From Dehalogenimonas sp. THU2 (GTDB lineage: Bacteria; Chloroflexota; Dehalococcoidia; Dehalococcoidales; Dehalococcoidaceae): a stretch of 39,360 nucleotides of DNA. Under the pieces are notes generated by a model. That model was not told the origin of the DNA and did no database searches. It saw only the letters and a program-made list of their open reading frames with translations. The position numbers and the translations under genes are program-made. Location of the stretch: assembly GCF_039749495.1 (NCBI RefSeq), contig NZ_JBDLLU010000015.1, positions 1-39,360 of the forward strand, given 5' to 3'. Of the stretch, positions 1,393 to 39,314 are shown one piece after another; the first letter of the stretch is position 1; every line of letters begins with the position of its first letter.

Positions 1393-1725
1393 ATGGGCAA
1401 TATGAATATCTACATCGGGAACTTATCATTGGGGATAACAGAAGAAGACTTGCGGAAAGAGTTCTCCCGTTTCGGCCAGGTGGCGGCAGTGACCATGATG
1501 AATGACCAGCATTTCGGCAACGGACAGGCTACGGGTTACGGTTACGTCGAGATGCCTTCCAATAATGAGGGGTGTTCCGCCATCGCCGGGATGCATGGAA
1601 AAATCCTCCATGGGAGAGAGATTACGGCTATCGAGGCAATGCCTTTATCTCACGATACGCCGAAAGGTCAATACAATCGGGAGGTACGGCAGGGCAGGTG
1701 GGGGAAGCGGAGCGCCACGGCTTAA
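1393..1725 (+). CDS. Single-RRM RNA-binding protein
   Basis: The 110-residue product is one RNA recognition motif with a short basic tail. RNP2 is IYIGNL (residues about 6-11) and RNP1 is the GYGYVEM stretch (about 47-53), with aromatic residues in the usual RNA-stacking positions. Such small glycine-poor RRM proteins occur in cyanobacteria and Chloroflexi and are often cold-induced RNA chaperones; that role is family knowledge, not shown here. I chose the ATG at 1393 because AGGAG lies at 1383-1387, and because a longer in-frame opening from 1288 would start inside the upstream terminator. The C-terminal tail (RQGRWGKRSATA) is basic. Confidence 0.9.
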   Translation: MGNMNIYIGNLSLGITEEDLRKEFSRFGQVAAVTMMNDQHFGNGQATGYGYVEMPSNNEGCSAIAGMHGKILHGREITAIEAMPLSHDTPKGQYNREVRQGRWGKRSATA

Positions 1726-1843
1726 GATATTCCGGGGAATACCGGGGGTCCCCGTGATCAAACGGGGCAAGCGACCCACGAATCACTATTTCTAACCCTC
1801 AGCCGCCGCTTCTTATATTTCAAGTACGCATTCAGAGGGCGGC

Positions 1844-1890
1844 TCGAAACCCGGCCACCACCGGCTATGTCCGGGGGAGCCGGGTTTCGA
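1844..1890 (+). terminator. Probable terminator hairpin between convergent genes
   Basis: TCGAAACCCGGC (1844-1855) pairs perfectly with GCCGGGTTTCGA (1879-1890), giving a 12-bp stem with a 23-nt loop. An AATTATTT stretch follows. It lies between the RRM gene (plus) and the MFS gene (minus). The T-run is weak, so function is not certain. Confidence 0.55.
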
Positions 1891-1905
1891 AATTATTTCG
1901 CATTA

Positions 1906-3576
1906 TTAAATTTCGGCTTCGTGTCTCTTATCCGACTGGCTTAGCGTCAATTCGAGTTCGATACCTGCTTCTTCCACCGCCGGGCGGTGGCTTTTTCTGA
2001 GTGCGATCTGCGGCAGGAAAAAGGACGCCACGAAGGCCACGGCCATGAGCGCCGCGCCGATAAGGAACACTTGGTCGATAGCCCCGCTGAAGGCGGTCTT
2101 CAGAGTCTCGATGAAACTATCGAAGGCGGATGCAAAGGCATCGCGGATGGCGTCCGGCGCCTGGGCGATGAGGGCGCGGATGTTCGCCTGTCCGTCGGTA
2201 CTGAGGAACGCCTGGATGGTATTGCCGTCGATATGTACAGGAGTGTCAGGATTGGCCTGCTGTGCCATGACGACGAACGGGTCGGTATCGATACCGGTCA
2301 GCCGGGATGCCAGTTGGGCATTCATGACGCCGCCCAGGACTGCACCGCCGACGGTGGCGCCGACGGTGCGGAAGAGCTGGATGCCGGCGGTGACCTCACC
2401 CAGGCGGGCGTGAGTGAAGGCATTTTGCACCGCCAGGGTGAAGACGGGCATAGTGAAGCCCAGACCAATGCCCATGACGATCATCCGGAAGATCAGCCCC
2501 ATGTCAGAGGTCGTTTCGTTGATCTGGGAGAAGAGCAGCATACCGGCCATGGCGATGCCCATTCCGCTGATCGCCAGCACTTTATAGTTGCCGGTGCGCG
2601 ACATGACCTGGCCGGAGAAAATGGAACCGGCTACGATCGATAGCATCATCGGCATCAGGATAAGACCGGAGTTGGTGGCTGAAAAGCCGGCGACACCTTG
2701 GGCGAAGACGGGGATGAACAGGATAGACCCGAACATGCCTACCGATGCCAGGAAGGTGGCGATGATCGAGACGGTGAACACCCGGTTCCTAAAGAGTCCC
2801 AGCGATACGATAGGGTCTTTGGCCTTGGCCTCGCGCCAGATGAAAGCAGCGAGGGCGAACGTCGAGCCGATCAGCAAGGAGATGATCTCGGTCGAGCCCC
2901 AGGCATACTCGCTGCCGCCCCAGACCAACGCCAGAAGCAGCGGCACCAGGGTTGCGGTGAGGAGGAGGGCGCCGAGGTAATCAATGAAGCGTTCTTTGGC
3001 ATCGTGAATCGTCTTGTCCATGCGGGGCAGGCCGGCGAAGATTACCGCAATGGCCGCCAGGCCGACAGGGATGTTGACGTAGAAGATCCAGCGCCAGGAG
3101 AAGCTGTCGGTCAGCCAGCCCCCGAGCAGCGGACCGGCCACCGAGGTGATGCCGAAAACGGCGCCGAAGAGACCCTGGACCTTGCCGCGCTGGGCCGGCG
3201 GGAAAAGGTCGCCGATGGTGGCGAAGGCGTTGACCATAATGGCGCCGGCGCCGATGCCCTGTAAAGCGCGGAAGAAGATCAACTGGGTCATGTCCTGCGC
3301 CAGGCCGGAGAGCATCGAGCCGGCAAGGAAAACGGCCACGGCGATCAGGGCAAGGTTACGGCGACCGTAAAGGTCGGAGAGCTTGCCGTAGATGGGCACG
3401 GTCACCGCCGAAGCCAGCATATATGAGGTGAAGACCCAGGACAGGTGGGACAAACCCTGGAATTCTTCTACGATGCGGGGCATGGCCGTGGCGACGATGG
3501 TCTGGTCGAGAGAAGCCATGACCATGGATAACATGATGCCGGCCAGGATGAGGGGGGTCTTAGGTTTGAGAGTCAT
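1906..3576 (-). CDS. MFS multidrug efflux transporter, DHA2 (EmrB/QacA) family
   Basis: This 556-residue membrane protein has the 14-helix layout of DHA2-type drug:proton antiporters. Visible signatures are the first helix with the MASLDQTIVATAMP pattern (residues about 20-33), the motif A loop GKLSDLYGRR (about 64-73), an RALQGIGAGA helix (about 103-112), and a motif C-like GPLLGGW (about 148-154). It should export hydrophobic drugs or toxic metabolites across the cytoplasmic membrane using the proton gradient; the substrate cannot be told. It is co-transcribed with a MarR repressor whose stop lies one base upstream of this start, which supports drug- or ligand-induced expression. The GAGG before the ATG lies within the end of marR. 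Confidence 0.93.
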   Translation of the reverse strand: MTLKPKTPLILAGIMLSMVMASLDQTIVATAMPRIVEEFQGLSHLSWVFTSYMLASAVTVPIYGKLSDLYGRRNLALIAVAVFLAGSMLSGLAQDMTQLIFFRALQGIGAGAIMVNAFATIGDLFPPAQRGKVQGLFGAVFGITSVAGPLLGGWLTDSFSWRWIFYVNIPVGLAAIAVIFAGLPRMDKTIHDAKERFIDYLGALLLTATLVPLLLALVWGGSEYAWGSTEIISLLIGSTFALAAFIWREAKAKDPIVSLGLFRNRVFTVSIIATFLASVGMFGSILFIPVFAQGVAGFSATNSGLILMPMMLSIVAGSIFSGQVMSRTGNYKVLAISGMGIAMAGMLLFSQINETTSDMGLIFRMIVMGIGLGFTMPVFTLAVQNAFTHARLGEVTAGIQLFRTVGATVGGAVLGGVMNAQLASRLTGIDTDPFVVMAQQANPDTPVHIDGNTIQAFLSTDGQANIRALIAQAPDAIRDAFASAFDSFIETLKTAFSGAIDQVFLIGAALMAVAFVASFFLPQIALRKSHRPAVEEAGIELELTLSQSDKRHEAEI

Positions 3577-24768: not shown

Positions 24769-25974
24769 TTAAGCGCCGAGGAACTTGGAAAGAAGCCCCT
24801 TCATCCGGCCGAAGAATCCCAGGCCGCCCCACTTGTTACGCGGCTGGTTCTTGGCGCCCCAGAGGAGCAGGCCGACGCTGGTGGCGTATGCCGGGTCGCG
24901 CAGGGCATCGGTGATGCCGTAGACGTTGGACGGCATGCCGACCCTGACCGGTAACTGGCTAATATCGCGGCCAAGAGTTTCCAATCCGGCGATGTTGGAC
25001 GAACCGCCGGTGAAGACGATGCCCGCGGGTACGACGCTCTCGTAATCCGAGCGCGGCAGTTCCAGGAGGACCAGCCGCATGATCTCCTCGATGCGGGCGC
25101 GCAGGATGTCGCACAGGTCCTGGTAGCTGATGCCATGGCCGTCCTCAGAGATGGGGTTGGCTTCCATGCGGCTTTCATAGACCGGCATGACCGAGCCGTA
25201 ACGCTTTTTCATCTCTTCGGCCACGTCGAAGGGCAGACCCAGGCCGATGGCGACGTCCCGGGTGAGCTGGTATCCGGCCACCGGTAAGATGGCGGTGTGC
25301 CAGATGGCACCGTCCTTAAAGATGCAGACGTCGGTGGTGCCGCCGCCGATATCAGCGAGGACCACGCCGACCTGTTTCTCATCTTCAGTCAGCACCGCTT
25401 CACTGGAAGCCAGGGGCTCCAGCACCAGATCGTCGATCTCGACGCCCAGGGAGCGGATGCACTTGATGAGGTTCTGCACCGAGGCCGCGGCGGCTGTGAT
25501 GACGTGTGTTTCCACATCCAGCCGGAAGCCGTGCATGCCGACCGGGTTCCTGACCCCGACCTGGCCGTCCACCGCATAGTTACGGGGGATGACATGCAAT
25601 AGCTTGCGGTCGTTGGGGACCTTAATGCTCTGGGCGCTGGAAAGCACCCGTTTGAGATCATCCGGGCGCACCAGGCGGTCGCCCCGGGTGATGGCCACCA
25701 CGCCCTTGTTGTTGACCGAACTGACATGGCGGCCAGTGACGCCGACATAGGCGCTCTCGACCTTGTAATTGGCGGCCTGTTCCGCTTTTCTGATCGATTC
25801 CTTGATCGACTGTGCGGCGTCATTGATGTTGACCACCAGACCCTTGTGCAACCCGTGCGATGGGGCGATGCCGACGCCGATTACCTGGGTAGAGCCGTTT
25901 TCGGTAATTTCGGCGATGGCGGTACAGATCTTGGTAGTACCAACATCGATCGCCGTTACAATCCTGCGTTTCAT
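24769..25974 (-). CDS. ftsA: Cell division protein FtsA
   Basis: FtsA is an actin-fold ATPase that ties FtsZ filaments to the membrane. The 401-residue protein shows phosphate-1 IDVGTTKI (residues about 9-16), the SHV/1C domain around AVDGQVGVRNPVGMHGFRLDVETHVI (about 120-145), phosphate-2 LADIGGGTTDVCIF (about 197-210) and the adenosine loop GIVFTGGSSNIAGL (about 320-333). The C-terminus (FFGRMKGLLSKFLGA) is an amphipathic helix, the membrane-targeting sequence. TAAGGAGGAGG before ATG 25974 is an excellent ribosome site. It is preceded by rsmH only 58 bases away; no peptidoglycan gene intervenes. Confidence 0.97.
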   Translation of the reverse strand: MKRRIVTAIDVGTTKICTAIAEITENGSTQVIGVGIAPSHGLHKGLVVNINDAAQSIKESIRKAEQAANYKVESAYVGVTGRHVSSVNNKGVVAITRGDRLVRPDDLKRVLSSAQSIKVPNDRKLLHVIPRNYAVDGQVGVRNPVGMHGFRLDVETHVITAAAASVQNLIKCIRSLGVEIDDLVLEPLASSEAVLTEDEKQVGVVLADIGGGTTDVCIFKDGAIWHTAILPVAGYQLTRDVAIGLGLPFDVAEEMKKRYGSVMPVYESRMEANPISEDGHGISYQDLCDILRARIEEIMRLVLLELPRSDYESVVPAGIVFTGGSSNIAGLETLGRDISQLPVRVGMPSNVYGITDALRDPAYATSVGLLLWGAKNQPRNKWGGLGFFGRMKGLLSKFLGA

Positions 25975-26032
25975 GTTCCTCCTCCTTATAGCTTGATTGA
26001 CGTTTAGTTTGGACCCTTTATTGAAGCCACTC

Positions 26033-27097
26033 TCACATCGCCGCCCTCCTTCGCAGGGGGGTCACACCGGGAGCGACAAGGGTAGGGCTGCCCGCCTCAA
26101 GGCAATTCCTAACCAGTGGCTGATTGGACTCATTTAGAAAAAAAAGCTCTTCGAGCGGCACCTCATTTTCCTCACGACTGAGGATGCGCTCCGCGGCCCG
26201 CAGCTTGGCGCTGCGGCTGCGTGGGTTGAGCCTTAACTCTTCAACGGATGGGGTGATAACCTTCTTATTCAGGATCCGCAGCCGGGCGGCATGACCGCAG
26301 CGGCATTCCGGCAGATCGGCCGGGCAGACACAGTCACGGGATTCCTGCTGCATGAACTGCTTGACGATGCGGTCTTCAAGCGAGTGATAACTGATGACCA
26401 CCAGGCGGCCGCCGAAACCTAAAAGGCGGGTGGCCTGCTCCAGGACGTTCTCCAGCCGGGTGAGTTCCTCGTTCACGGCGATACGCAAGGCCTGGAAAGT
26501 GCGGGTAGCCGGGTGTATGTCCTCACCCCCGCCGACAACCCGGGCGACCAAAGCCGCCAGCTCCGTGGTCGTTTTAATGGGACGGGATTCAACGATGCGC
26601 CGGGCGATCTGGCGGCTGCGCCGTTCCTCGCCGTAGCGCCACAGGATATCGGAGATCTCCGTCTCGGAATAAGTGTTGACGATCTCCGCGGCGGTTACCT
26701 TCTGATCCGGTGAGAAGCGCATGTCCAGGGGGGCTTCATGGCGGAAGGAAAAGCCCCGGCCGGCGGCGGTAAGCTGCATCGAGGCCAGGCCGAGATCCAA
26801 CAGGATGCCGTGCACCGGGTAGAAGCCGTTATCCCGGCAGACGGTTTCCATGTTGCCGAAATTATCGTTGACCAGGAGATAGGAACCCTCGAAGTCCCAC
26901 AGATTCTCCCGGGCGATCTCCAAACTTTTTGGGTCGGCGTCGATGCCCAGCAGCTGGCCGCCCGGGGAACTCATCTCCAGGATGGCGCGGGCATGACCGC
27001 CGGCGCCGGTGGTGCCGTCGACATAACGCCCGCCCGGACCCACGGCCAGCGCTTGCAGCGTTTCCTCCAGCATCACCGGAATGTGATCAGACGACAT
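26033..27097 (-). CDS. rsmH: 16S rRNA (cytosine1402-N4)-methyltransferase
   Basis: RsmH (MraW) methylates N4 of C1402 in the 16S rRNA P-site using SAM. The 354-residue protein opens [13 protein letters not shown], followed by the SAM-binding [15 protein letters not shown] (about 26-40) and GIDADPKSL, then DLGLASMQL (about 101-109), [12 protein letters not shown] (about 201-212), [13 protein letters not shown] (about 236-248) and a cysteine-rich [13 protein letters not shown] loop (about 256-268). Family members end near residue 310; this one carries an extra tail of about 46 residues (308-354) of unknown role. It begins three bases after mraZ ends, in the standard mraZ-rsmH order. Confidence 0.96.
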
Positions 27098-28970: not shown

Positions 28971-30101
28971 TTACAGGAAACTGGACAAAGTGCCACCGCC
29001 GCCACTCGTGGGAGGGTTGCGGCGGGCGCCTTTCGGACGGGCGCGGCCACCCATGAGGCGGTCGACTTCGTCGGCATCGTTACAATAGGTGAAAACAGAA
29101 TCTTTCTCGACCTTCTCGCGGCGGTAGAGTTCCACTAGCGCCTCATCCATGGTGATCATACCTTCGTCGCGGCTGGTGCGGATGACGTTGGGCAATTGGT
29201 AGATCTTACCCTCGCGAACCAGGTTCTTGACCGCAGCGTTCGCCAGCATGATCTCCACCGCGGCGATGCGGCCGTCGCTGATGGAGCGGGGAACCAGCGT
29301 CTGGCAGAGCACGCCGACCAGCAGGGAAGCCAGGCGGGTCTGCGCCAGGTGGCGTTCGTGGGGCGGGAAGAGGTCGATGATGCGTTCCAGCGCCTGGTAG
29401 GTGCTGGGGGCGTGGGACGTCGAAAGTACCAAATGGCCGGTCTCGGCGATAGTCAGCACTGCGGCGGCGGTATCCAGATCCCGCATCTCGCCGACCATGA
29501 TGACATCCGGGTTCTGCCGGAGCACGTGTTTCAGCGCCTGGGAGAAGGAGCGGGTGTCAGTGCCGAGCTGGCGCTGGGTGATGGCGCATTTTATCGAGGG
29601 GTGGATGTATTCGATGGGGTCTTCGATGGTGACCACGTGCTTGGCGGCGGTGTGGTTAAGGTGCTGGATCATGGCCGCCAGGGTGGTCGATTTACCGCTG
29701 CCGGTGGGACCGGTGACGATAGCCAGGCCGCGGGGTTTGGCGATCAGGTCCTTGCAGATCTGCGGCAGCTCCAGTTCATCGATGGTGGGGATGGCCGGGG
29801 GCAGCAGCCGGATAGCCAGGCTGATGGCGCCCCGCTGCTGGGCGGCATTGCAGCGTAGACGGCCGACGCCGGGCATGGTGAAACCGAAGTCCAGTTCCAG
29901 TTCCTGAGCGAAGGTCTCCCGTTCCGCGGGCTGGGCCAGTTGTGTCAGCGCGTCCTCGGTGTCCCGGGGTTCCAGTGGAGGCAGGGGCAGTTGTTCCAGC
30001 CCGCCCCGGACACGAACCAGCGGCGGCGAATCCACCACCAGATGGAGATCGGAGCCATTCCGGTCCCTGGCTTCGGTAATAAGCGCGAAGACATCAATCA
30101 T
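28971..30101 (-). CDS. pilT: Type IV pilus retraction ATPase PilT
   Basis: PilT powers pilus disassembly and retraction (twitching, DNA uptake). The 376-residue protein has an N-terminal PAS-like domain (about 1-100, NGSDLHLVVDSPPLVRVRGGL), the ATPase core with Walker A GPTGSGKST (131-139), Asp box TIEDPIEYIH, an atypical Walker B VIMVGEMRDLDTAAAVLTIAETGHLVLSTSHAPS, and a hexamer-stabilising C-terminus. In the last helix before the end I see no classical AIRNLIRE, but NLVREGKIYQLPNVI serves the same place (about 297-311). It lies at the distal end of the pilus gene set. The C-terminal tail is Gly/Pro rich. Confidence 0.94.
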   Translation of the reverse strand: MIDVFALITEARDRNGSDLHLVVDSPPLVRVRGGLEQLPLPPLEPRDTEDALTQLAQPAERETFAQELELDFGFTMPGVGRLRCNAAQQRGAISLAIRLLPPAIPTIDELELPQICKDLIAKPRGLAIVTGPTGSGKSTTLAAMIQHLNHTAAKHVVTIEDPIEYIHPSIKCAITQRQLGTDTRSFSQALKHVLRQNPDVIMVGEMRDLDTAAAVLTIAETGHLVLSTSHAPSTYQALERIIDLFPPHERHLAQTRLASLLVGVLCQTLVPRSISDGRIAAVEIMLANAAVKNLVREGKIYQLPNVIRTSRDEGMITMDEALVELYRREKVEKDSVFTYCNDADEVDRLMGGRARPKGARRNPPTSGGGGTLSSFL

Positions 30102-30147
30102 ACTTACTATTTCATTTTCTTCATGAGTGAGTTTATACCGATATAGA

Positions 30148-31626
30148 TTAGTACATTATCAAGGTGAATTTATATATGTAGACCTTGGTGTCTTCAGTGA
30201 GTTCCTTGATTATTTCAGCAACTATCACATTCTCAAAACGTAGGGTGTCCCGCAATGCCCGTGCGTAAGCAAAGACATTAACTTCCCCCTCAGTGGCTAC
30301 ACCTTTGACAGTAAGCACTCCTTCGCCCCAGTCAATGGTATCTAAAGTGACTTTATTAGAGGGAATGCGCAGCCAGGCATTACGCACGTCGCCGGAGGCT
30401 TTTTCCCGCTGGTTACGCATGTACTCATACTGGGCATCCAGCGAATTGGTTTTAGTGACGATAGGGGTGATGGCTTTGTCAATCCCGGCAGTCTGCGAAT
30501 TAACCCCGGCGGTTTCAGCCTGGATCCGGGCGATGTCGGCTTGGGCCAGGGTCACCTGTGTCTGGACGCCGTCGATTCTGAGCTGTATTTCATCGTTTGT
30601 TTTCTTGAAGTCATCGATCAGGAACCAGCCGTAAACCAGCCCGCCGATGAGAATAACGCCGGCTATCGGTGCCAGGATATTGAACCAGTTGACACCTTTG
30701 GGCAGGTACTGGGCCGGCAGAACATTGACGTTGATGACGGAGCCGAAAGCCGCATCCTCCTTGGCCAGGGGGACCATACCCAGGTTGATCATGAACTGGC
30801 TCGCCTCGAAGCCTTCAGGGGCGGTGAACGGCTCGGTCAGCAGTTCCACCGGGCGGCCGTCGCTGCCTCCAAGGGCTGGCCAGGCATCAGTCTCGTTGGC
30901 CAGTTCTCCTGCGAGGACGATAGGCACATCCGCACCGAGGTGGCTCTCCGCATGTGAGGAATTATAGAAGGTGATGGTGCGGGATATCTCCTCGGCGATC
31001 CCCATGACACGTTCCGCGTCGGTGAGAACCTCGGTGGGCAGCGAAAAGCTGCGGATGACCTCAGGCACACGGTTCACCAGAATGACGATATCGATATTAG
31101 ATAACCAGGTATTGACGACCACGGCACGGGGCACGTGCACCAGCCGCGCCAACGCCAGCGGGGCGATGTCCATTACCTTGACCAAAAGTCCGGCTTTCTG
31201 GATGGTGCGTACCAGAGCGTCCGTGGCGTTTTTGGGATAGGCCACCAGGAAGTAGCGCTGCTCATGACCCTCGGCGCCGAGCAGTTGCCTGCCCAGATAG
31301 ACCTGATCTATGGGCACCGGGATAACGCGGTTGGCTTCTGACTGGATAGCCTCTTCCAGGATGTTCTTGGGCACTTCCGGCAGGTTGATCAGGCGGAAAA
31401 TAGAGTTCAACCCGGACAGGGCGGCCACCACAGTGGCGCCGGGATGTCCCTGTTCATGCATAAAGGCGCGCAGGCTCTCCGCTACTGCGTCTTCCCGGGT
31501 GATGATGCCATCTGAGACCATGCCCGGATCCAACAACAGTGAAGCCCATTTTTCAACTACTTTACCGTTGGTTACCAGTAGTTTAATCTCATTGTCTTCA
31601 ATGAATAAAGAAACTTGTTTAGACAT
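30148..31626 (-). CDS. PilM-PilN fusion, type IV pilus inner-membrane assembly protein
   Basis: The 492-residue product joins two pilus proteins. Residues about 1-290 form the actin-like PilM domain (VSLFIEDNEIKLL, PEVPKNILEEAIQSEANRVIPVPIDQV). Near 298 the chain reads VINVNVLPAQYLP, the INLLP-type start of PilN, then a membrane helix (about 316-338), a coiled coil (about 340-410) and a C-terminal ferredoxin-like PilN domain (about 430-492). PilM normally binds the N-terminal peptide of PilN, so the fusion makes the partners covalently linked. It should connect the cytoplasmic motor to PilO. The ATG directly follows the pilO stop with no gap. Confidence 0.88.
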   Translation of the reverse strand: MSKQVSLFIEDNEIKLLVTNGKVVEKWASLLLDPGMVSDGIITREDAVAESLRAFMHEQGHPGATVVAALSGLNSIFRLINLPEVPKNILEEAIQSEANRVIPVPIDQVYLGRQLLGAEGHEQRYFLVAYPKNATDALVRTIQKAGLLVKVMDIAPLALARLVHVPRAVVVNTWLSNIDIVILVNRVPEVIRSFSLPTEVLTDAERVMGIAEEISRTITFYNSSHAESHLGADVPIVLAGELANETDAWPALGGSDGRPVELLTEPFTAPEGFEASQFMINLGMVPLAKEDAAFGSVINVNVLPAQYLPKGVNWFNILAPIAGVILIGGLVYGWFLIDDFKKTNDEIQLRIDGVQTQVTLAQADIARIQAETAGVNSQTAGIDKAITPIVTKTNSLDAQYEYMRNQREKASGDVRNAWLRIPSNKVTLDTIDWGEGVLTVKGVATEGEVNVFAYARALRDTLRFENVIVAEIIKELTEDTKVYIYKFTLIMY

Positions 31627-32256
31627 TTATTCGTCCTCCAGCGCCATCAAGGTGATAACGATAGTTGATTCCGTTGGCTGGACTCCAGCGAATTCCGGAT
31701 CATACACGTTAAAAATTTTAGTCTGAACTGAGTCTATGGTGGACGTCAGATAGTCCTGAATCAGCGCTGTGGTTTCCAGACTGCCGATGAAGCTGTTGAT
31801 ACTGTTGATATGCCCGATAATCTTGATCGTCATGGTGGTGCTCTGGTATTTAATTTTCTCGATTGTTACTATCGAGAAATCAGTTGCTTGGAACTCAACC
31901 AGATTGAGAGAGTGAACGGCGGCGCGGACGAATAATTGAGTACCGTAATCAATCGTTTGGACAGCGGCCGGATGGATCGGTTGGGGGAATTTTGCGATGA
32001 ATTCATCCAGGGCAGCCTGGGCGGCGGCCATACGTGCATGAGTTTCCGCCAGTTTTGTCTCTGCCGCGGCAAGTTCATTTTCAGCGTTGGTCACGCCGCT
32101 CTGAGCGATCGGCAACAAAGCCTGGGTGGTCTCCAAGCTGTTGTTCAATTGGGCTTCCCGGTCCCGTTCATCCTGCCAGAGCATGAACAGCACCACGGCG
32201 CCGATGGCAATAATACCTAAGAAGAGGGTGATAATTGCTGCCTTACCGATCTTCAT
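31627..32256 (-). CDS. PilO-like type IV pilus assembly protein
   Basis: The 209-residue protein has an N-terminal membrane helix (about 6-27), a long coiled coil (about 33-93; DREAQLNNSLETTQALL, ELAAAETKLAETHARMAAAQAALDEF) and a C-terminal ferredoxin-like fold (about 100-209). This is the PilO arrangement: it dimerises with PilN in the periplasmic-side space and sets the alignment platform. Sequence identity of PilO proteins is low, so the assignment relies on architecture and position just before the PilM-PilN gene. Confidence 0.82.
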   Translation of the reverse strand: MKIGKAAIITLFLGIIAIGAVVLFMLWQDERDREAQLNNSLETTQALLPIAQSGVTNAENELAAAETKLAETHARMAAAQAALDEFIAKFPQPIHPAAVQTIDYGTQLFVRAAVHSLNLVEFQATDFSIVTIEKIKYQSTTMTIKIIGHINSINSFIGSLETTALIQDYLTSTIDSVQTKIFNVYDPEFAGVQPTESTIVITLMALEDE

Positions 32257-32286
32257 GCGGTCTCCTTTTCCTCAGATTTAACTAAT

Positions 32287-33399
32287 TTAGGCGTATTCAT
32301 ATGAAATGATGGCCCAGTATTGATTATTTGGGTCTGGAAGAATGAGTGGAAAATCCGTGTCAAGGTCTGTGTGAACGATATTGACTTCCTGACTAATATG
32401 AATTTCAACTTCTACATTGCCTGCCAAAGAACCATAAAAGTCTCCGTTGGGGTAAAATTTGATTGTACCAGAAAGAGACATTAGAAAAACGAAGTCATCG
32501 GGATTTGTTGAAGCTTTTGGTTTATAATCAACATTACCCAACGCGATGATAGCGCCCTGACCGATAATGGTTGCTCTTGAGTCTATGGTTACACTGCCTT
32601 CGACAAATATGGTTTGATAATTGAGGTCCAACACAAAGTCTTTATTTGTGGATGCGATTTGAAGGTCATTTTTGACGTAAATCGTACCGGTCAACTTCGT
32701 TTCGGCACCTAAAGTCCCACTAATAATATCGAGGTCTCCGTCTTGATATCTCGGACCGATGCCCTCACCCAGATTCAATTCGTCAACTTCAATCGTTTCG
32801 TCTCCGAGAAACGTATAATCTTTAGTCAGGTCATAGAAAAAGCTGGTCATGATTCCGCTACCGGGCCACTGTTCTTGAGGTACTATCTTTACATCGCCAT
32901 CAATATTGAGATTGCTGTCGTTGCCTAACGTAGTAATAACTTGGGTGCTAGTAATCGCGTTATTTAGAAAGTCAGAAAAATCTACGCTTGAAACCATACT
33001 TTTCACTAGCAAAGTAGAATCGCCTTCTGTAACTGAAGACGTAACCAAATACAAAGCTTCGTCCATCCACGTTATTGAAAAGCCTACGTCAAACCCTCCG
33101 AAAAGGAATGGTTCACTAGTAAAGATTAAAGGGTTTGGTGTTACGGGGTATTCTTCAGTCGTTTTAGGTAAACCCGGGATATCTTCTCGAATCATCCATA
33201 CCGCCCGTTCAAAACCAGCATCGGCAGCATAGTTTAATTCTACTTGCTGTTCTGTCTGCCGGGCAATGATCACGCCAGAACCTATCAACGACAGCATAGG
33301 GGCAATAATTAAGCTACCGACAGCAAGCATGATCATCGCAAGAATCAAGGCTTGGCCTTTTTCCTTCTTCATGATTGCTTTAAATAATGCGATATTCAT
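32287..33399 (-). CDS. PilX-like pilus assembly protein with beta-solenoid domain
   Basis: The 370-residue protein starts with a short basic segment, then KKEKGQALILAMIMLAVGSLIIAPMLSLIGS (about 11-41), the QALIL-type hydrophobic N-terminus seen in PilX-like pilus proteins; a cleavable G-F/E prepilin site is not clear. The body is beta-rich and contains ISGTLGAETKLTGTIYVKNDLQIAS...TIFVEGSVTIDSRATIIGQGAIIALGNV (about 225-292), which looks like a right-handed beta-solenoid, a bactofilin- or DUF7305-like part. It may be a pilus-tip or adhesion factor; this is inference. AAGGA seven bases before ATG 33399 supports the start. The gene is noticeably A+T-richer than its neighbours. Confidence 0.72.
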   Translation of the reverse strand: MNIALFKAIMKKEKGQALILAMIMLAVGSLIIAPMLSLIGSGVIIARQTEQQVELNYAADAGFERAVWMIREDIPGLPKTTEEYPVTPNPLIFTSEPFLFGGFDVGFSITWMDEALYLVTSSVTEGDSTLLVKSMVSSVDFSDFLNNAITSTQVITTLGNDSNLNIDGDVKIVPQEQWPGSGIMTSFFYDLTKDYTFLGDETIEVDELNLGEGIGPRYQDGDLDIISGTLGAETKLTGTIYVKNDLQIASTNKDFVLDLNYQTIFVEGSVTIDSRATIIGQGAIIALGNVDYKPKASTNPDDFVFLMSLSGTIKFYPNGDFYGSLAGNVEVEIHISQEVNIVHTDLDTDFPLILPDPNNQYWAIISYEYA

Positions 33400-33436
33400 G
33401 TCAATGTCCTTTTGGGTATCCTGTTCGACGTAGTCT

Positions 33437-33928
33437 TTAACTTACCCTGGGAGTAATTTGATACAAGCGAAATGCTGTCCTTTCTCCTACTGTGGCGGTC
33501 ACGTTTAGCTCGTTGGTTGAAGAATAGGTGACATTACTGATAAACGAAGCCACTGATATTGTCAATGGGGCCACAGCATCGTCAACATAATCGTGCCGTA
33601 ATATGACACCGGTTTCGGTCAGTTCATAAACCACTATGTGTTTATTACCACCCTGGCCTGAATAATCCCACTGCAAGGTCAAAGGGAAACCTGTCCCAAC
33701 GCTAACGTCTCTGAATTGAGATTGAAGGACATCTTGATTGAGCCATTGACCGAGATTTTGGACCTGCCGAATAGCAATGGTTTCATCTTGTGTAATCCGG
33801 TTTACGGAAAATATTTGATATATACCGGTGGATAAGGCGCCGGTTATAAGAACAAGAATAGCCATGGCGACAAGTACTTCGACAAAAGTGAATCCGGTCT
33901 GCCCCTTTTTTAGTAATATTTTAATCAT
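33437..33928 (-). CDS. Type IV prepilin-like minor pilin (PilW/GspJ-type)
   Basis: The 163-residue protein carries a class III signal: basic leader MIKILLKKGQTG followed by FTFVEVLVAMAILVLITGAL, with Phe after the conserved Gly12 and Glu at mature position 5, the prepilin peptidase cleavage and N-methylation site. The hydrophobic helix (about 13-35) is followed by a beta-rich globular domain with two short stretches like QWDYSGQG and ETGVILRHDYVDD. The context (between pilX-like and pilV-like genes) suggests a minor pilin that primes assembly. The start overlaps the upstream gene's stop by four bases (ATGA). Confidence 0.82.
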   Translation of the reverse strand: MIKILLKKGQTGFTFVEVLVAMAILVLITGALSTGIYQIFSVNRITQDETIAIRQVQNLGQWLNQDVLQSQFRDVSVGTGFPLTLQWDYSGQGGNKHIVVYELTETGVILRHDYVDDAVAPLTISVASFISNVTYSSTNELNVTATVGERTAFRLYQITPRVS

Positions 33929-34395
33929 CGATCTACCAGATAATCTTCCAAGATTAAGATTATTTCATTTTTATAAGAAATGGTAATGGTTATTGATTGG
34001 ATACCATTGTCAATGTTGCTCGGATTGGATGGTATCAATTCGTACTGGAGAGTGTCCTCATCGAGTACATTCCGTGATAATCTGATTGCATCAGTTTCAA
34101 TCATGAAATTTGGCGGTAAAACGATATCCGGACTGGTGGAATATTTTAAGGTTACGCTATCCACATCATATGGGCTTATAGCATCATAGGTATTTGGTCT
34201 TTTCAGGTATTCTATCTGGCTTCTGCCAATGCTTTCTGCAGTAGTTCTCAAATTTGCAAGCTCAGTGGCTTTTATACCGGTATACAGAGCTCCAAGAAAG
34301 GCACTGCCAATGATGACTAAAATTGCCATGGCAATGATCACTTCAATCAGGCTGAAGCCGTTCTTCTTCAATTTTATTTTATTTACGGCGGCCAT
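33925..34395 (-). CDS. Type IV prepilin-like minor pilin (PilV/GspI-type)
   Basis: The 156-residue protein has a basic leader MAAVNKIKLKKNG and then the class III signal FSLIEVIIAMAILVIIGSAF, with cleavage expected after Gly13 and Glu at mature position 5. After the hydrophobic helix come LGALYTGIKATELANLRTTAESIGRSQIEYLK and a beta-rich C-terminal domain. It is shorter than major pilins carrying a Cys pair; none is present, so a minor pilin is more likely. Its stop overlaps the next pilin gene by four bases. It is A+T-rich in composition. Confidence 0.82.
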   Translation of the reverse strand: MAAVNKIKLKKNGFSLIEVIIAMAILVIIGSAFLGALYTGIKATELANLRTTAESIGRSQIEYLKRPNTYDAISPYDVDSVTLKYSTSPDIVLPPNFMIETDAIRLSRNVLDEDTLQYELIPSNPSNIDNGIQSITITISYKNEIILILEDYLVDR

Positions 34396-34441: not shown

Positions 34442-35647
34442 CTAAAGTTGCCCATACATAGAGTACATGGAGGATACCAGCGCCACGGCGATGAAGGCGA
34501 CGATGATGCCGATGATAACGGTCATGGCGGGCTGGACGAGGTCGATAGCGCCTTTGATGCGGTCGTCGGCTTCCATGTCGTAGGTGTGGGCGACGGTGGC
34601 CAGGGTGTCGTCCAGTTTACCGGTTTCTTCACCGACGCCGACCATCTGTACCATCATGGGCAGGAAGACCTTGCGCCGGGACATGGGGCCGGAGATGCCC
34701 TCGCCGCGGATAAGCTCCTGCTGTACTTCTCCGAGCGCCTCACCCACTATCTTGTTGGAGGTGGCGTTCTGAGCCTGGATCATAATCTCCGGCAGCGGCA
34801 GGCCGGCCTTGAAGAGGAGGGAAATGGTCTGGGAGGCGCGTGACAGGTCCGAGAGCTGGATGATGCGGCCGATCACCGGGGCCTTGAGCATGGCCTTGTC
34901 GATGGCATATCTGCCCTTGGGGGTGCGCCCCCAGGCGATGGTGCCGACAATACCCAATACCAGACCGCCCAGGACGAAAACGCCGTAACTGGTGGAAAAG
35001 TCAGTTACCGCGATGAGAACCTTGGTGGCGGTGGGCAGTTCCGTGCCGAGCTGCCGGTAAAGGTCTGTGAAAGTGGGCAGCACGAAGATCATCAGGATTG
35101 AGATAACGAGCACGGCCACCACGGCTACCACAGTAGGGTAGGTCATGGCGCTCTTGAGTTTTTTCTGGGTCTCGTTCATACGCGACAGGAAGTCCGCCAT
35201 ATTGCGGAGCACCGTCTCCAGGTTACCGCCCTGTTCACCGGCGGACAGGACGCGGTGGAAAAGGGGCGAAAACACCTTGGGGTGCTTGCTCATGGCGCCG
35301 GACAGGGATGTGCCACCGCGGATGTCATTGGCGACGGCGCCCAGGGTGCCGCGGAAGGTCTTGTTGGTGGTCTGATCCTGAAGGAGCTCCAGAGCGGTCA
35401 CGATGTCCGTGCCGGATTCCAGGAGCAGAGCCAATTGGCGGGAGAAAAGGATAATCTCACCCAGTTTCACCTTGGGAGTGAACATGCTGGAACCGCTGGC
35501 GGCGAAAAGCTTGGACTGCGCCTTCAGGGAGAGCACCTGGAAGCCGTTATGGGCCAGGAGCTTGGCGGCGGACTCCTTGTCCATGGCGGCCATCTTGCCC
35601 TGTACCAATTTTCTTTCCTGATTGTAGGCGACGTACGCGAAGTTCAT
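34442..35647 (-). CDS. pilC: Type IV pilus inner-membrane platform protein PilC (GspF family)
   Basis: PilC is the polytopic core on which PilB and PilT act to assemble or remove pilins. The 401-residue protein has two tandem T2SSF domains (about 70-195 and 270-395), each with the LEELSxxGT/SGTDIVTALELL and GLPLPEIMIQAQN-type helical bundle, and three membrane segments (about 170-195, 215-240 and 375-398). The N-terminus is MNFAYVAYNQERKLVQGKMAAMDKESAAKLL, the usual opening. AGGA lies six bases before ATG 35647. It lies 241 bases downstream of pilB, with its own possible promoter. Confidence 0.94.
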   Translation of the reverse strand: MNFAYVAYNQERKLVQGKMAAMDKESAAKLLAHNGFQVLSLKAQSKLFAASGSSMFTPKVKLGEIILFSRQLALLLESGTDIVTALELLQDQTTNKTFRGTLGAVANDIRGGTSLSGAMSKHPKVFSPLFHRVLSAGEQGGNLETVLRNMADFLSRMNETQKKLKSAMTYPTVVAVVAVLVISILMIFVLPTFTDLYRQLGTELPTATKVLIAVTDFSTSYGVFVLGGLVLGIVGTIAWGRTPKGRYAIDKAMLKAPVIGRIIQLSDLSRASQTISLLFKAGLPLPEIMIQAQNATSNKIVGEALGEVQQELIRGEGISGPMSRRKVFLPMMVQMVGVGEETGKLDDTLATVAHTYDMEADDRIKGAIDLVQPAMTVIIGIIVAFIAVALVSSMYSMYGQL

Positions 35648-35888: not shown

Positions 35889-38285
35889 CTAGAACCGTTC
35901 CTCCGGTGAATAAGCGTTCTTCAGTACCTCCGATGGTGTGGTGATGCCTTCCTTCACTTTAAGCATGCCGTCCCGGAGCATGGTGGTCATGCCTTCACGG
36001 ATGGACTGGGCGCGGATGTCTCCGGCGCCGGCGTTGTCAAGGAGCATACGTTTCAGGGTTTCCGAAAAATACATGATCTCATACATACCCACCCGGCCGA
36101 GGTAGCCTGTATAGGCGCAGGATTTGCAGCCGGTGCCGTAGGTGAATTTCACCTTTTTCTCACCGGTCTCTCGCTCATAGGCCACCTGCTCGATGACCGG
36201 GGCTTCCACCTGGTGGTTGCAATAGGGGCAGATGCGGCGGACCATGCGCTGGGCTACCACGCCAATGACGGCGGAGGCTATCAGGAAGGGCTCCACACCG
36301 AGGTCCAGCATGCGGAAAAGGACGCCGACCGTATCGTTGGCGTGAATGGACGATAGCATCAAGTGGCCGGTCAGGGCGGCCTGGACGCCGATGTTGGCGG
36401 TCTCCGCATCCCGGATCTCACCGACCATGATCACATCCGGATCCAGGCGCAGAATGGAGCGCAGGCCGGAGGCGAAGGTTATGCCAGCCTGGACGTTGAC
36501 CTGGATCTGGTTGATGTCTTTGAAGCGGTATTCCGCCGGGTCCTCGATGGTGATGACGTTTCGCGACTTGGTATCGATGGTCGATAAAGAAGCGTACAGG
36601 GTGGTGGTCTTGCCGGCGCCGGTGGGGCCGGAAACCAGGATCATGCCGTAGGGGACTCTAAGCATGCTTTCATATCTGGCCAGAGACTCCGGATTGAATC
36701 CGAGTTGCGGCAGTTCCAGCAGACCGCGGGACTTGTCCAGGAGGCGGAGAACCGACATCTCGCCGTGGACAGTGGGGGCGGTGGCGACGCGGATATCGAT
36801 GCTGCGGCCGCCGGCGTTGATAGAGAACTGGCCGTCCTGTGCGTGGTGATGGTCGGCGATATTGAGCGAGGATAAAATCTTGACGCGCGAGATGATGGCG
36901 CGCTGCACGCTGATCGGCAGGCTCATCATTTCCTGGAGGCTGCCGTCGATACGGAAGCGGACCCGGAGACGTTCCTCATCCGGCTCCAGGTGAATATCCG
37001 AGGCGCGGGCCTTGACCGCTTCCTCGATGATGAGGTTGAGGGCCTGCGCCAGCGGTGCGTCCAACGCGGCGTCGGTAGCCAGGCTTTCATCCGTGGCGTC
37101 GGCGTAAACGGAGACCCGGGAGAGGAACTTGTCCACCTCGCCGTAGCCTTTATAGTTGAAATCGATGGCTTCACGCAGTTCCCGCTCATCGGCGGGCAGC
37201 GCCTTGATCCGGCGTTTGGAGTAGGCGGTAAGAGCCTCCAGCGCCATGATGTCCGACGGGTTGGACATGGCCACTTCCAGGGTGTTGCCGGAAAGTCTCA
37301 CCGGTATGGCACTATACCGGCGGGCCATGACCTCCGGGATCAGTTTCAAGGCTTCATTCGTGGGTAGTTGCCGGAGCTCCCCACCGAGTTTGCCGTTATC
37401 CCCGGTTTTGACCTCCGTGGCGACTGGTTTTGCCGGTGCGGAGGCGGTCGCCGCCGGGGGTGCGGGTGCTGCTTTAACCTCGGGTTTGATCTCTTCCTTG
37501 ATCTCGGGTTTTTTCTCGATTTTCACCTCGGCTTCAGGCGGTGAAGACAGTTCGATGACCTTGATCTTCTGGCTCTCAGCGAACTTGACGGCCTCGCCGG
37601 AAAGCAGGGCGGATGTGGCGATGAACTTAGAGGAGATGCGGGCGTCGTAAGCCTTGGTGTCGAAAAGGGCCACGTCCTCCAGGCTGACGACCTCCCGGTC
37701 ATCGACGACATCTATGCCCAGGTTATGTTCCTGGGTGCCATTCTGCCGGGCGACCAGATCGAAGGTATGCTGGATGCCGCTGCGGCCGGTGAGCCGCGCG
37801 TTTTCTTCCACCAGGTAGCCGGTTTTTTTAAGCGATGCGATCAAATCCGCTTTATCGGTGAACTTGAGGGGCTGATCCAGCGCCGGGGTTTCGGCGGGGG
37901 ACGGTTCGTCCTGGGCGAAGAGAGCCTGTAGGGAAGCCTCATCGAAGATCTGGACCTTCTGGCTTTCGGCGAACTCCTGGGCGGTTTTAGCCAGGTGGGA
38001 GGGTAAAATGACCACCCGTTCGGTGATGCCGGCGTCATATGTTTTATTTGCAAAGGCGAAGATGGCCGATTCTGTGGCCGCCTGATCCGGCATATCGGAT
38101 AATACGGAGAAAGCCAGGGTGCGCTGGGCGAATCCGTCGTCCCGGCGCGACAGCAGGTCGAAGCTGTGTTCCAGACCGGAACGGCCCTTGAGGACGGCCG
38201 TTTCCGTCACGTCGTAGCCCTGGCCACGGAGGTATGCGGCCAGGCGGGAGGCTATTCCCTTGTTTTCAGAAGTGACGGCTGGCAT
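35889..38285 (-). CDS. pilB: Type IV pilus extension ATPase PilB with two N-terminal Mrr-like repeats
   Basis: The 798-residue protein is longer than usual PilB (about 560). Its C-terminal half is standard: an MshEN-like domain (about 305-385, LPTNEALKLIPEVMARRYSAIPV), then Walker A GPTGAGKT (553-560), Asp box TIEDPAEYRF, Walker B DPDVIMVGEIRDAET and a four-cysteine zinc site (Cys686, 689, 720, 723). It powers pilus extension. Residues 11-123 and 145-248 are two copies of a domain sharing GRSGxxHxFDL, TKxYDAxI/KxYDAGI and the AxxFAESQKI end. This fold pattern resembles Mrr-type restriction endonucleases; the downstream acidic/lysine catalytic pair is absent. A Lys/Glu and Ala/Pro-rich linker follows (about 250-300). 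GGAG precedes ATG 38285. Confidence 0.93.
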   Translation of the reverse strand: MPAVTSENKGIASRLAAYLRGQGYDVTETAVLKGRSGLEHSFDLLSRRDDGFAQRTLAFSVLSDMPDQAATESAIFAFANKTYDAGITERVVILPSHLAKTAQEFAESQKVQIFDEASLQALFAQDEPSPAETPALDQPLKFTDKADLIASLKKTGYLVEENARLTGRSGIQHTFDLVARQNGTQEHNLGIDVVDDREVVSLEDVALFDTKAYDARISSKFIATSALLSGEAVKFAESQKIKVIELSSPPEAEVKIEKKPEIKEEIKPEVKAAPAPPAATASAPAKPVATEVKTGDNGKLGGELRQLPTNEALKLIPEVMARRYSAIPVRLSGNTLEVAMSNPSDIMALEALTAYSKRRIKALPADERELREAIDFNYKGYGEVDKFLSRVSVYADATDESLATDAALDAPLAQALNLIIEEAVKARASDIHLEPDEERLRVRFRIDGSLQEMMSLPISVQRAIISRVKILSSLNIADHHHAQDGQFSINAGGRSIDIRVATAPTVHGEMSVLRLLDKSRGLLELPQLGFNPESLARYESMLRVPYGMILVSGPTGAGKTTTLYASLSTIDTKSRNVITIEDPAEYRFKDINQIQVNVQAGITFASGLRSILRLDPDVIMVGEIRDAETANIGVQAALTGHLMLSSIHANDTVGVLFRMLDLGVEPFLIASAVIGVVAQRMVRRICPYCNHQVEAPVIEQVAYERETGEKKVKFTYGTGCKSCAYTGYLGRVGMYEIMYFSETLKRMLLDNAGAGDIRAQSIREGMTTMLRDGMLKVKEGITTPSEVLKNAYSPEERF

Positions 38286-38367: not shown

Positions 38368-39069
38368 TTAGTTGTTGGTTTCTATTCCGGTATCCCGGCC
38401 TAACGGAATGTAGCCGCGGCGGATGGCCAGCACGGCGGCGTGGGCGCGGTCATTGGCGTTCAGCTTGCGCAGAATGGCCGAAATGTGGTTTTTGATGGTC
38501 TGCTCGGAGATCTTGAGCTCCGAGGCGATCTGCTTGTTGGTACGGCCTTCGGTGACGCGCATGAGGATCTGGCTTTCCCGCTGGGTAAGCGGCGTGACCA
38601 CGTCCAGGCCTTGATCTATCTCTCCCAGTTCCTTGAAATTGCTGAGTACCCGCTGGGCGATGCTGGGGCTTAGCAGGCTCTCGTTAATGGGATACTCACC
38701 GCGGGAGGCGCGCTGAATGATCTCCACCAGTTCCGCGGGTGTGGAGCTTTTCTTGAGGCAGGCCACGGCGGCGGTGCGGATGACATCGAAGAGTTCGGCG
38801 TCATTGGGATCCGGCGACAGGATGATGACGCGGGTGTTGGGGAAGAGGCGGACTATCTTGCGACCCAGATCCAGGCTGTTATGCGCGGTGAGGTCCGATC
38901 CCAGCAGGACTATCTCCGGCAGGGCGGCCTCGATCTTTTCCAGTGGGCCATCCGAGGGGTCGCACTCCATCACCTCGTATTCCGGCCGGTTCTCCAGGGC
39001 GTGAGCTACGCCGGACCGGAAAAAGGGCTGCTCGTCGCAGATCATGATCCTGGTCTTATTCATGCTCAT
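38368..39069 (-). CDS. NarL/LuxR-type response regulator with atypical receiver
   Basis: The 233-residue protein has an N-terminal receiver-like domain (about 5-125) and a C-terminal LuxR-type HTH (LTQRESQILMRVTEGRTNKQIASELKISEQTIKNHISAILRKL, about 160-203). In the receiver, Asp12-Glu13, Ser85 and Lys106 are kept, but alignment to NarL puts Gly57 (in VLLGSDL) where the phospho-acceptor Asp should be; the nearest acid, Asp59, is two residues away. It may therefore work without phosphorylation, as some atypical regulators do. GAGGAAG lies before ATG 39069. The start overlaps the stop of the upstream HTH gene by four bases, and the gene lies immediately before pilB, so a pilus role is likely but unproved. 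Confidence 0.9.
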   Translation of the reverse strand: MSMNKTRIMICDEQPFFRSGVAHALENRPEYEVMECDPSDGPLEKIEAALPEIVLLGSDLTAHNSLDLGRKIVRLFPNTRVIILSPDPNDAELFDVIRTAAVACLKKSSTPAELVEIIQRASRGEYPINESLLSPSIAQRVLSNFKELGEIDQGLDVVTPLTQRESQILMRVTEGRTNKQIASELKISEQTIKNHISAILRKLNANDRAHAAVLAIRRGYIPLGRDTGIETNN

Positions 39070-39314
39070 AGCGTTTCTTCCTCCAGTTCATCGGCGGGGT
39101 GAACCCCGTTACCCCGGGACTGGTGCCCGGACAGGAAGGCGTCTATGTCCTCGCGCCGGAAGCGGCGATCGCCGCGGGGACCCAGCTGATAGGACCTCAG
39201 CGTGCCCTGGTTGCTCCAGCGCCGGACGGTATTGATGTGAACGTTCAGGATCACAGCCACCTCCGAGGTGGTCAGCATCGGTGTAACCGCCGTTTGGTTC
39301 GTTGTCTGACCCAT
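39066..39314 (-). CDS. BldC/MerR-type small helix-turn-helix protein
   Basis: The 82-residue protein has one winged HTH of the MerR/excisionase class: LTTSEVAVILNVHINTVRRWSNQGTLRSYQLGPRGDRRFRREDIDAFL (about residues 14-61). The tail is short and acidic, with no effector domain, as in BldC. BldC-type proteins bind direct repeats in promoters; two TTACTA words 10 bp apart lie upstream at 39338-39353. The stop overlaps the response regulator start by four bases (ATGA). Weak ribosome site; TATAGT ends five bases before ATG 39314, so it could be leaderless. An in-frame ATG at 39278 is a less likely start. Confidence 0.88.
   Translation of the reverse strand: MGQTTNQTAVTPMLTTSEVAVILNVHINTVRRWSNQGTLRSYQLGPRGDRRFRREDIDAFLSGHQSRGNGVHPADELEEETL

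Follow-up and report, generated by a model that had tools for sequence, protein, structure and literature searches.

A Tandem Mrr-like Domain in the Type IV Pilus ATPase PilB of Dehalogenimonas sp. THU2: A Probable Non-catalytic Regulatory Module

The pilB Locus of Dehalogenimonas sp. THU2

The window analyzed here is the whole stretch of 39,360 nucleotides from contig NZ_JBDLLU010000015.1 of Dehalogenimonas sp. THU2. It carries a type IV pilus locus, which is closed by pilT at 28971 and contains a pilB gene with an extended N-terminal region (Table 1). In the encoded protein Pfam identified a T2SSE domain (residues 408–788, E 1.1e-124), an MshEN match (residues 308–378, E 3e-14) and an Mrr_cat (PF04471) match (E 3.8e-9, 37.1 bits; the curated cut-off is 21 bits) whose two stretches lie within the N-terminal ~250 residues. 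When the N-terminal part alone was used as query the Mrr_cat match had an E of 1.4e-10, and the two copies, termed the dyad in the following, were the only Mrr_cat match found in the THU2 genome. The protein scored 503 bits against the NCBIfam equivalog TIGR02538 and 520 bits against the NCBIfam GspE model, which is below the respective cut-offs of 675.65 and 630.25. The name PilB is therefore based on the domains (T2SSE with Walker A, and ND1) and on the locus with its adjoining pilC, and not on the equivalog. On these grounds we assign the open reading frame to the PilB-type extension ATPases.

Table 1. Features of pilB and of the surrounding pilus locus in the window.
Feature	Coordinates	Strand	Basis
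pilB, extension ATPase of the type IV pilus carrying the Mrr-like dyad at its N-terminus; 798 aa, ATG start	35889..38285	-	Open reading frame and Pfam
Mrr-like copy 1, residues ~10–126; D43 kept, S60 at acid position, L62 at Lys position	37908..38258	-	Pfam PF04471, AlphaFold2, site table
Mrr-like copy 2, residues ~142–250; D176 and D192 kept, V194 at Lys position	37536..37862	-	Second Pfam stretch, AlphaFold2, site table
Linker, residues 255–306; A/P/K/E-rich, fast evolving, predicted disordered	37368..37523	-	pLDDT <50 over residues 249–306; dN/dS 0.09–0.57
MshEN_C/ND1-like domain, residues 308–378; MshEN_N (ND0) and c-di-GMP motif absent	37152..37364	-	Pfam PF05157, motif scan
T2SSE ATPase domain, residues 408–788; Walker A GPTGAGKTT	35922..37064	-	Pfam PF00437
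pilC, inner-membrane platform protein, next gene downstream	34442..35647	-	Pfam T2SSF
LuxR-type response regulator, directly upstream of pilB	38368..39069	-	Pfam Response_reg and GerE
Small HTH_17 (MerR-like) protein, upstream of the response regulator	39066..39314	-	Pfam
Rest of the pilus locus: two prepilin-like proteins, a 370-aa protein, PilN/GspL-like (weak naming), PilM, PilT	28971..34395	-	Pfam and gene order

The PilM-like protein (30148–31626, minus strand) has a weak PilN match at its C-terminus and is possibly a PilM-PilN fusion. Genes resembling ftsA and mraW (24769–27097, minus strand) adjoin the pilus locus.

The N-terminal Extension Is Predicted to Contain Two Mrr-type Folds

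A first-pass annotation of the sequence had described the gene product as PilB fused to two tandem Mrr-like repeats, and this was borne out by Pfam, self-alignment and AlphaFold2. Alignment of copy 1 (residues 10–126) with copy 2 (residues 142–250) detected the duplication with a BLOSUM62 score of 156, compared to 27.8 ± 5.1 for 2000 shuffles with a maximum of 58 (z ~25). The motifs listed as shared, GRSGxxHxFDL, K/TxxYDAxI (here K-x-YDA-x-I) and FAESQK, are present in both copies.

Structure prediction by AlphaFold2 from 33 sequences gave a model of the dyad with a mean pLDDT of 88.5. It consists of two restriction-endonuclease folds, each with the order helix, three strands, helix, strand, helix, strand. 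The top PDB match of this model was the Mrr-type predicted restriction endonuclease AF1548 (1Y88), which was found on copy 1 with a Z of 14.0 and an rmsd of 2.7 over 114 residues. The next fold matches, at Z 8 to 11.5, were Cdn1/Can2, NucS/EndoMS (on copy 2), Card1, XisH-type proteins and RPB5. Relatives were found by the fold search alone, as phmmer of the N-terminus and hmmsearch with its profile gave no convincing relative among PDB sequences. A Foldseek search against viral proteins gave weak restriction-endonuclease-like matches and no more specific match. Since the sequence profile and the structure agree, the Mrr-type fold is supported, and the PilB N-terminus is, by sequence and model, a tandem of Mrr-type PD-(D/E)XK folds. 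The possibility that the extension consists of MshEN repeats was rejected, because the MshEN match is limited to residues 308–378 and the dyad has the restriction-endonuclease topology. A model of full-length PilB reproduced both folds and the disordered linker. It was of low confidence over the ATPase (mean pLDDT 57) and was therefore not used for placing domains on the hexamer.

The CRISPR ancillary nucleases Can2, Card1 and Cdn1, which are activated by cyclic oligoadenylates and contain a sensor domain, have the nuclease fold in common with the PilB dyad (Z ~8–11.5), but PilB has no such sensor domain. The N-terminal (jaw) domain of RPB5 matches copy 2 (Z ~8) in the common arrangement and no more; its fold is single-copy and belongs to an unrelated machine. 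For this inactive restriction-endonuclease fold a role in protein-protein interaction has been reported (PMC1185551). AF1548 has the predicted catalytic residues D38, E51, and K53 (PMC1821046), whereas in the PilB dyad neither copy has the Lys and copy 1 is also without the acid.

Active-site Residues and Selection

Site counts were taken over 52 PilB dyads and 16 dyads from TackOD1 proteins, the second carrier described below. Of the 52 PilB dyads, 47 retain the first Asp of copy 1 (D43) and 47 that of copy 2 (D176). The second acid position of copy 1, which is S60 in THU2 PilB, holds an Asp in 9 of 52 dyads, while that of copy 2 (D192) does so in 50 of 52. None of the 52 PilB dyads has a Lys at the canonical position in either copy. 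The TackOD1 dyads keep the first Asp, have a Gly at the second acid position in 14 of 16 cases in both copies, and have a Lys at the copy 1 Lys position in 3 of 16. An intact relative from the class (L161) reads QID...AIECK, with an Asp-to-acid spacing that by sequence reading equals that of copy 1. An SNF2 helicase fused to an Mrr domain retaining GID...IQCK was also observed (L163:2–2371, plus strand).

Both copies had initially been regarded as dead nucleases missing the acid-x-Lys pair. As regards the Lys this holds for both copies in all 52 PilB dyads, and copy 1 has lost the acid as well (S60, L62). For copy 2 the description has to be corrected, as the acid D192 is kept and the Lys alone is lost. 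The absence of the Lys from both copies, together with the loss of the acid from copy 1, argues strongly against ordinary PD-(D/E)XK catalysis, i.e., for a dyad that is non-catalytic by the canonical chemistry. The Asp pair of copy 2 (D176/D192) could nevertheless hold a metal or a ligand, and conservation of the Asp residues could reflect some residual chemistry on metals or nucleic acids. Nearly invariant in the PilB dyads are G34, S36, D43, K81, D84, S169, G170, D176, D192, D209, K211, and K220. That residues other than Asp are equally conserved suggests that a surface or site is being maintained rather than decaying.

Among these residues K211, located in a helix, is kept in 50 of 52 PilB dyads. 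Along with the conservation of D176 and D192 this could be taken to indicate nuclease activity of copy 2 on RNA or DNA near the motor, by way of a displaced Lys such as K211. We consider this very improbable: the canonical Lys occurs in no PilB copy, copy 1, where the second acid is mostly lost, conserves K81 to the same degree, and nearly all TackOD1 copies have lost the second acid.

Pairs for dN/dS estimates were taken within the genus and the sister genus, and several had a dS near saturation. Both copies had a dN/dS of 0.02–0.22 in nearly all measurable pairs, and copy 1 showed zero non-synonymous change in one of them. For the ATPase core the values were below 0.09 (for the linker see Table 1). 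The dyad is thus under purifying selection, although less strictly than the ATPase core.

Distribution of the Dyad among PilB Proteins

The dyad was present on PilB in 8/8 genomes of the genus, in 3/3 sampled genomes of the sister genus and in many other Dehalococcoidia. A survey of PilB proteins of the class, proposed along with the first description, found the extension in 35 of 244 class genomes, with one (G218) counted from a contig-end fragment and with the class of the G-series genomes read from named relatives among public contigs. No match to the dyad was found outside Dehalococcoidia among 301 genomes drawn across the phylum, and no published description of a PilB-Mrr dyad fusion was found in the open-access literature.

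In a tree of PilB cores, 46 of the 47 dyad PilBs fell in one group of 48 rows, which also contained two dyad-less PilBs (L064 and L162). The one remaining dyad PilB (L159) stands apart, beside a row for which the upstream DNA was cut off. Just upstream of the start of the dyad-less L162 PilB (1529–3253, minus strand) a decayed in-frame remnant of copy 2 was found, and the dyad loss therefore looks recent in this case. With L064 and L162 lacking the dyad inside the dyad clade, it is evidently dispensable in some lineages. The copy number also varies: a PilB of 1098 aa (L168:1570–4866, minus strand) contains two dyads, that is four Mrr-like copies, ahead of ND1, and at least one PilB has a single Mrr-like copy (L055; L030 is close to a contig end). 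In a tree of single repeats, which has limited resolution with its ~113 columns, the dyad repeats all grouped together to the exclusion of two active Mrr relatives, with copy 1 and copy 2 each appearing as an old lineage. Two contigs labelled Deltaproteobacteria (L065 and L095) carry a PilB that nests among those of Dehalococcoidia and are probably mis-binned.

The loss of the dyad in some relatives would be expected if the N-terminal extension were a functionless, neutral leftover of a fusion. This is hardly credible, however, given that both copies are under purifying selection with a dN/dS well below 1, that all examined members of the genus and the sister genus carry the dyad, and that its motifs are near-invariant across the class.

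The genes around dyad PilBs were also compared. In 37 dyad loci there were 36 downstream same-strand pilC matches. Upstream same-strand response-regulator matches numbered 25 in these 37 loci compared to 2 in 28 dyad-less loci, and upstream HTH_17 matches numbered 18 compared to 2. Shared descent may be the cause of this difference in neighborhood.

TackOD1 Proteins Carry the Same Dyad

The only other dyad carriers found were TackOD1 proteins. In these, a TackOD1 zinc-ribbon domain (PF18551) is followed by the same dyad in proteins of ~450–480 residues, and REC-TackOD1-dyad proteins with a response-regulator receiver have ~680–715 residues. In the class sample, every TackOD1 above the cut-off whose frame was uncut by a contig end carried the dyad, and no TackOD1 over the cut-off was found outside Dehalococcoidia in the phylum sample. 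Type IV pilus loci of Thaumarchaeota have been reported to contain TackOD1 (arCOG06883) (PMC5847659; PMC4858521). The published architectures are TackOD1, REC-TackOD1, and REC-wHTH-TackOD1, with the Mrr dyad unmentioned; the proteins of Dehalococcoidia differ from these by the added dyad. They differ from PilB at the second acid position, which is G in TackOD1 and D in PilB copy 2.

Several of the TackOD1-dyad genes are located in pilus loci. In three genomes (G031, G181, and G132) the gene has pilT and prepilin genes belonging to the pilB locus as neighbors, and in G031 a prepilin peptidase gene is close by as well. A fourth genome (G199) has it upstream of pilB, separated from it by three small, mutually related genes, one of which has a weak Roadblock-type match. 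The PilB dyad was found in 10/16 genomes with TackOD1 compared to 25/228 without (Fisher p 4.6e-6, kinship ignored). Since the pair is found on signalling proteins encoded beside pilus genes in relatives, it probably serves the pilus as a module for control or docking. Pfam and profile searches found TackOD1 (PF18551) neither in THU2 PilB nor in the THU2 genome, and a TackOD1 match was likewise missing in 25 of the 35 sampled PilB-dyad genomes, THU2 included. TackOD1 therefore cannot be the sole partner of the PilB dyad.

These observations bear on a specific form of docking in which the PilB dyad pairs with the dyad of a TackOD1 or REC-TackOD1 protein and thereby seats a phosphorelay regulator on the PilB ring. 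The presence of the dyad on every TackOD1 protein sampled from the class that was not truncated, the co-occurrence with the PilB dyad, the genes in the same locus and the very existence of REC-TackOD1-dyad architectures are consistent with such homotypic pairing. As most PilB-dyad genomes are without TackOD1, and as the second acid position differs between the two carriers, we regard it as a tentative possibility only.

Possible Role of the Dyad at the Extension Motor

The N-terminus of PilB/MshE-type ATPases is a regulatory region that consists of ND0 (MshEN_N) and ND1 (MshEN_C) with a flexible linker (PMC8389850; PMC5013675). MshEN_N binds c-di-GMP via two RLG...Q motifs (PMC5013675), and in X. 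citri PilB the ND0-ND1 region binds PilZ and, through PilZ, FimX (PMC8389850). THU2 PilB has the ATPase and ND1/MshEN_C in common with these proteins but lacks ND0/MshEN_N and the RLG...Q motif, and has the Mrr-like dyad there instead. A scan of THU2 PilB for the c-di-GMP motif RLGxx..G....LxxxLxxQ, with a loose pattern included, gave no match, and a PilZ protein was not found in the THU2 genome. The motif was found in 1 of 128 rows of dyad-less PilBs from the class; as it is mostly missing there too, a displacement of the motif by the dyad cannot be claimed. Loss of c-di-GMP signalling is not claimed as the reason for the dyad, as the THU2 genome contains two GGDEF matches. By comparison with these ATPases, the dyad sits at the regulator-receiving end of the motor, tethered by a linker that is predicted to be disordered.

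Taken with its distribution on TackOD1 proteins, we consider it probable that the dyad of PilB is a non-catalytic regulatory and docking module for the extension motor. We infer both the regulation of the motor and the action by binding of a partner or ligand. In a PilB hexamer, six dyads with twelve folds would be exposed on flexible linkers of ~50 residues, in the place of an ND0 that elsewhere binds c-di-GMP (MshE) or is part of an N-terminus that binds a regulator (PilB with PilZ). Assembly or activity of the motor would be controlled by what the dyad binds, either a partner protein or a ligand seated at the Asp pair still present in copy 2. For an inactive restriction-endonuclease fold that serves protein contacts, RPB5 is a precedent. 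Evidence against this reading is that some lineages do without the dyad and that its conserved Asp residues could reflect residual chemistry. In some relatives the partner may be the TackOD1-dyad or REC-TackOD1-dyad protein from the pilus locus. It is also conceivable, with the odds against it, that the dyad represents an undescribed signalling module of Dehalococcoidia type IV pili, common to the motor and to REC-TackOD1 regulators, in which dyad-dyad docking or a common small ligand controls extension and replaces c-di-GMP/PilZ control at the motor.

The first-pass annotation had proposed that a dead nuclease fold on the motor might link it to DNA uptake or else bind a partner such as a regulator. 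The latter fits the wider evidence better, with TackOD1 and REC-TackOD1 proteins as the other carriers, and the former found no support. According to a DNA-uptake reading, the dyad would be a pseudo-nuclease still able to bind its substrate, and would connect the motor to incoming or cellular DNA in natural transformation. To our knowledge, direct contact of PilB, which acts on the cytoplasmic side, with DNA under uptake is no established step. The fold is that of DNA-cutting enzymes, the inactivated restriction-endonuclease fold of RecC still handles DNA (PMC1185551), and a ComEC homologue is encoded in the THU2 genome, so natural transformation is possible. The dyad is acidic, however, with a pI of 4.79 and a net charge of -13, and its other carriers are signalling-type TackOD1/REC proteins, which makes DNA binding unlikely.

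Regulation of the motor through the dyad would be relevant in several respects. The N-terminus of the extension ATPase is the entry point of known second-messenger and protein signals into the motor, and a pseudo-nuclease pair at this position, also found on TackOD1 proteins of two-component type, suggests that the motor is controlled in another way in Dehalococcoidia, which include organohalide-respiring bacteria used in bioremediation. The dyad also gives a starting point for working out the function of TackOD1, itself tied to archaeal pili as well, and the proposal can be tested with soluble fragments of a few hundred residues.

Genes around individual TackOD1 carriers were also noted. In L159 (8789–10551, minus strand) the stretch between pilB and the TackOD1-dyad gene encodes three small proteins that are related to each other, of which one has a weak Roadblock-type match. 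The REC-TackOD1-dyad genes of L165 (1496–3541, plus strand) and L166 (1229–3376, minus strand) lie beside a glycosyltransferase-like gene, and that of L166 lies also beside an OmpR-type response regulator.
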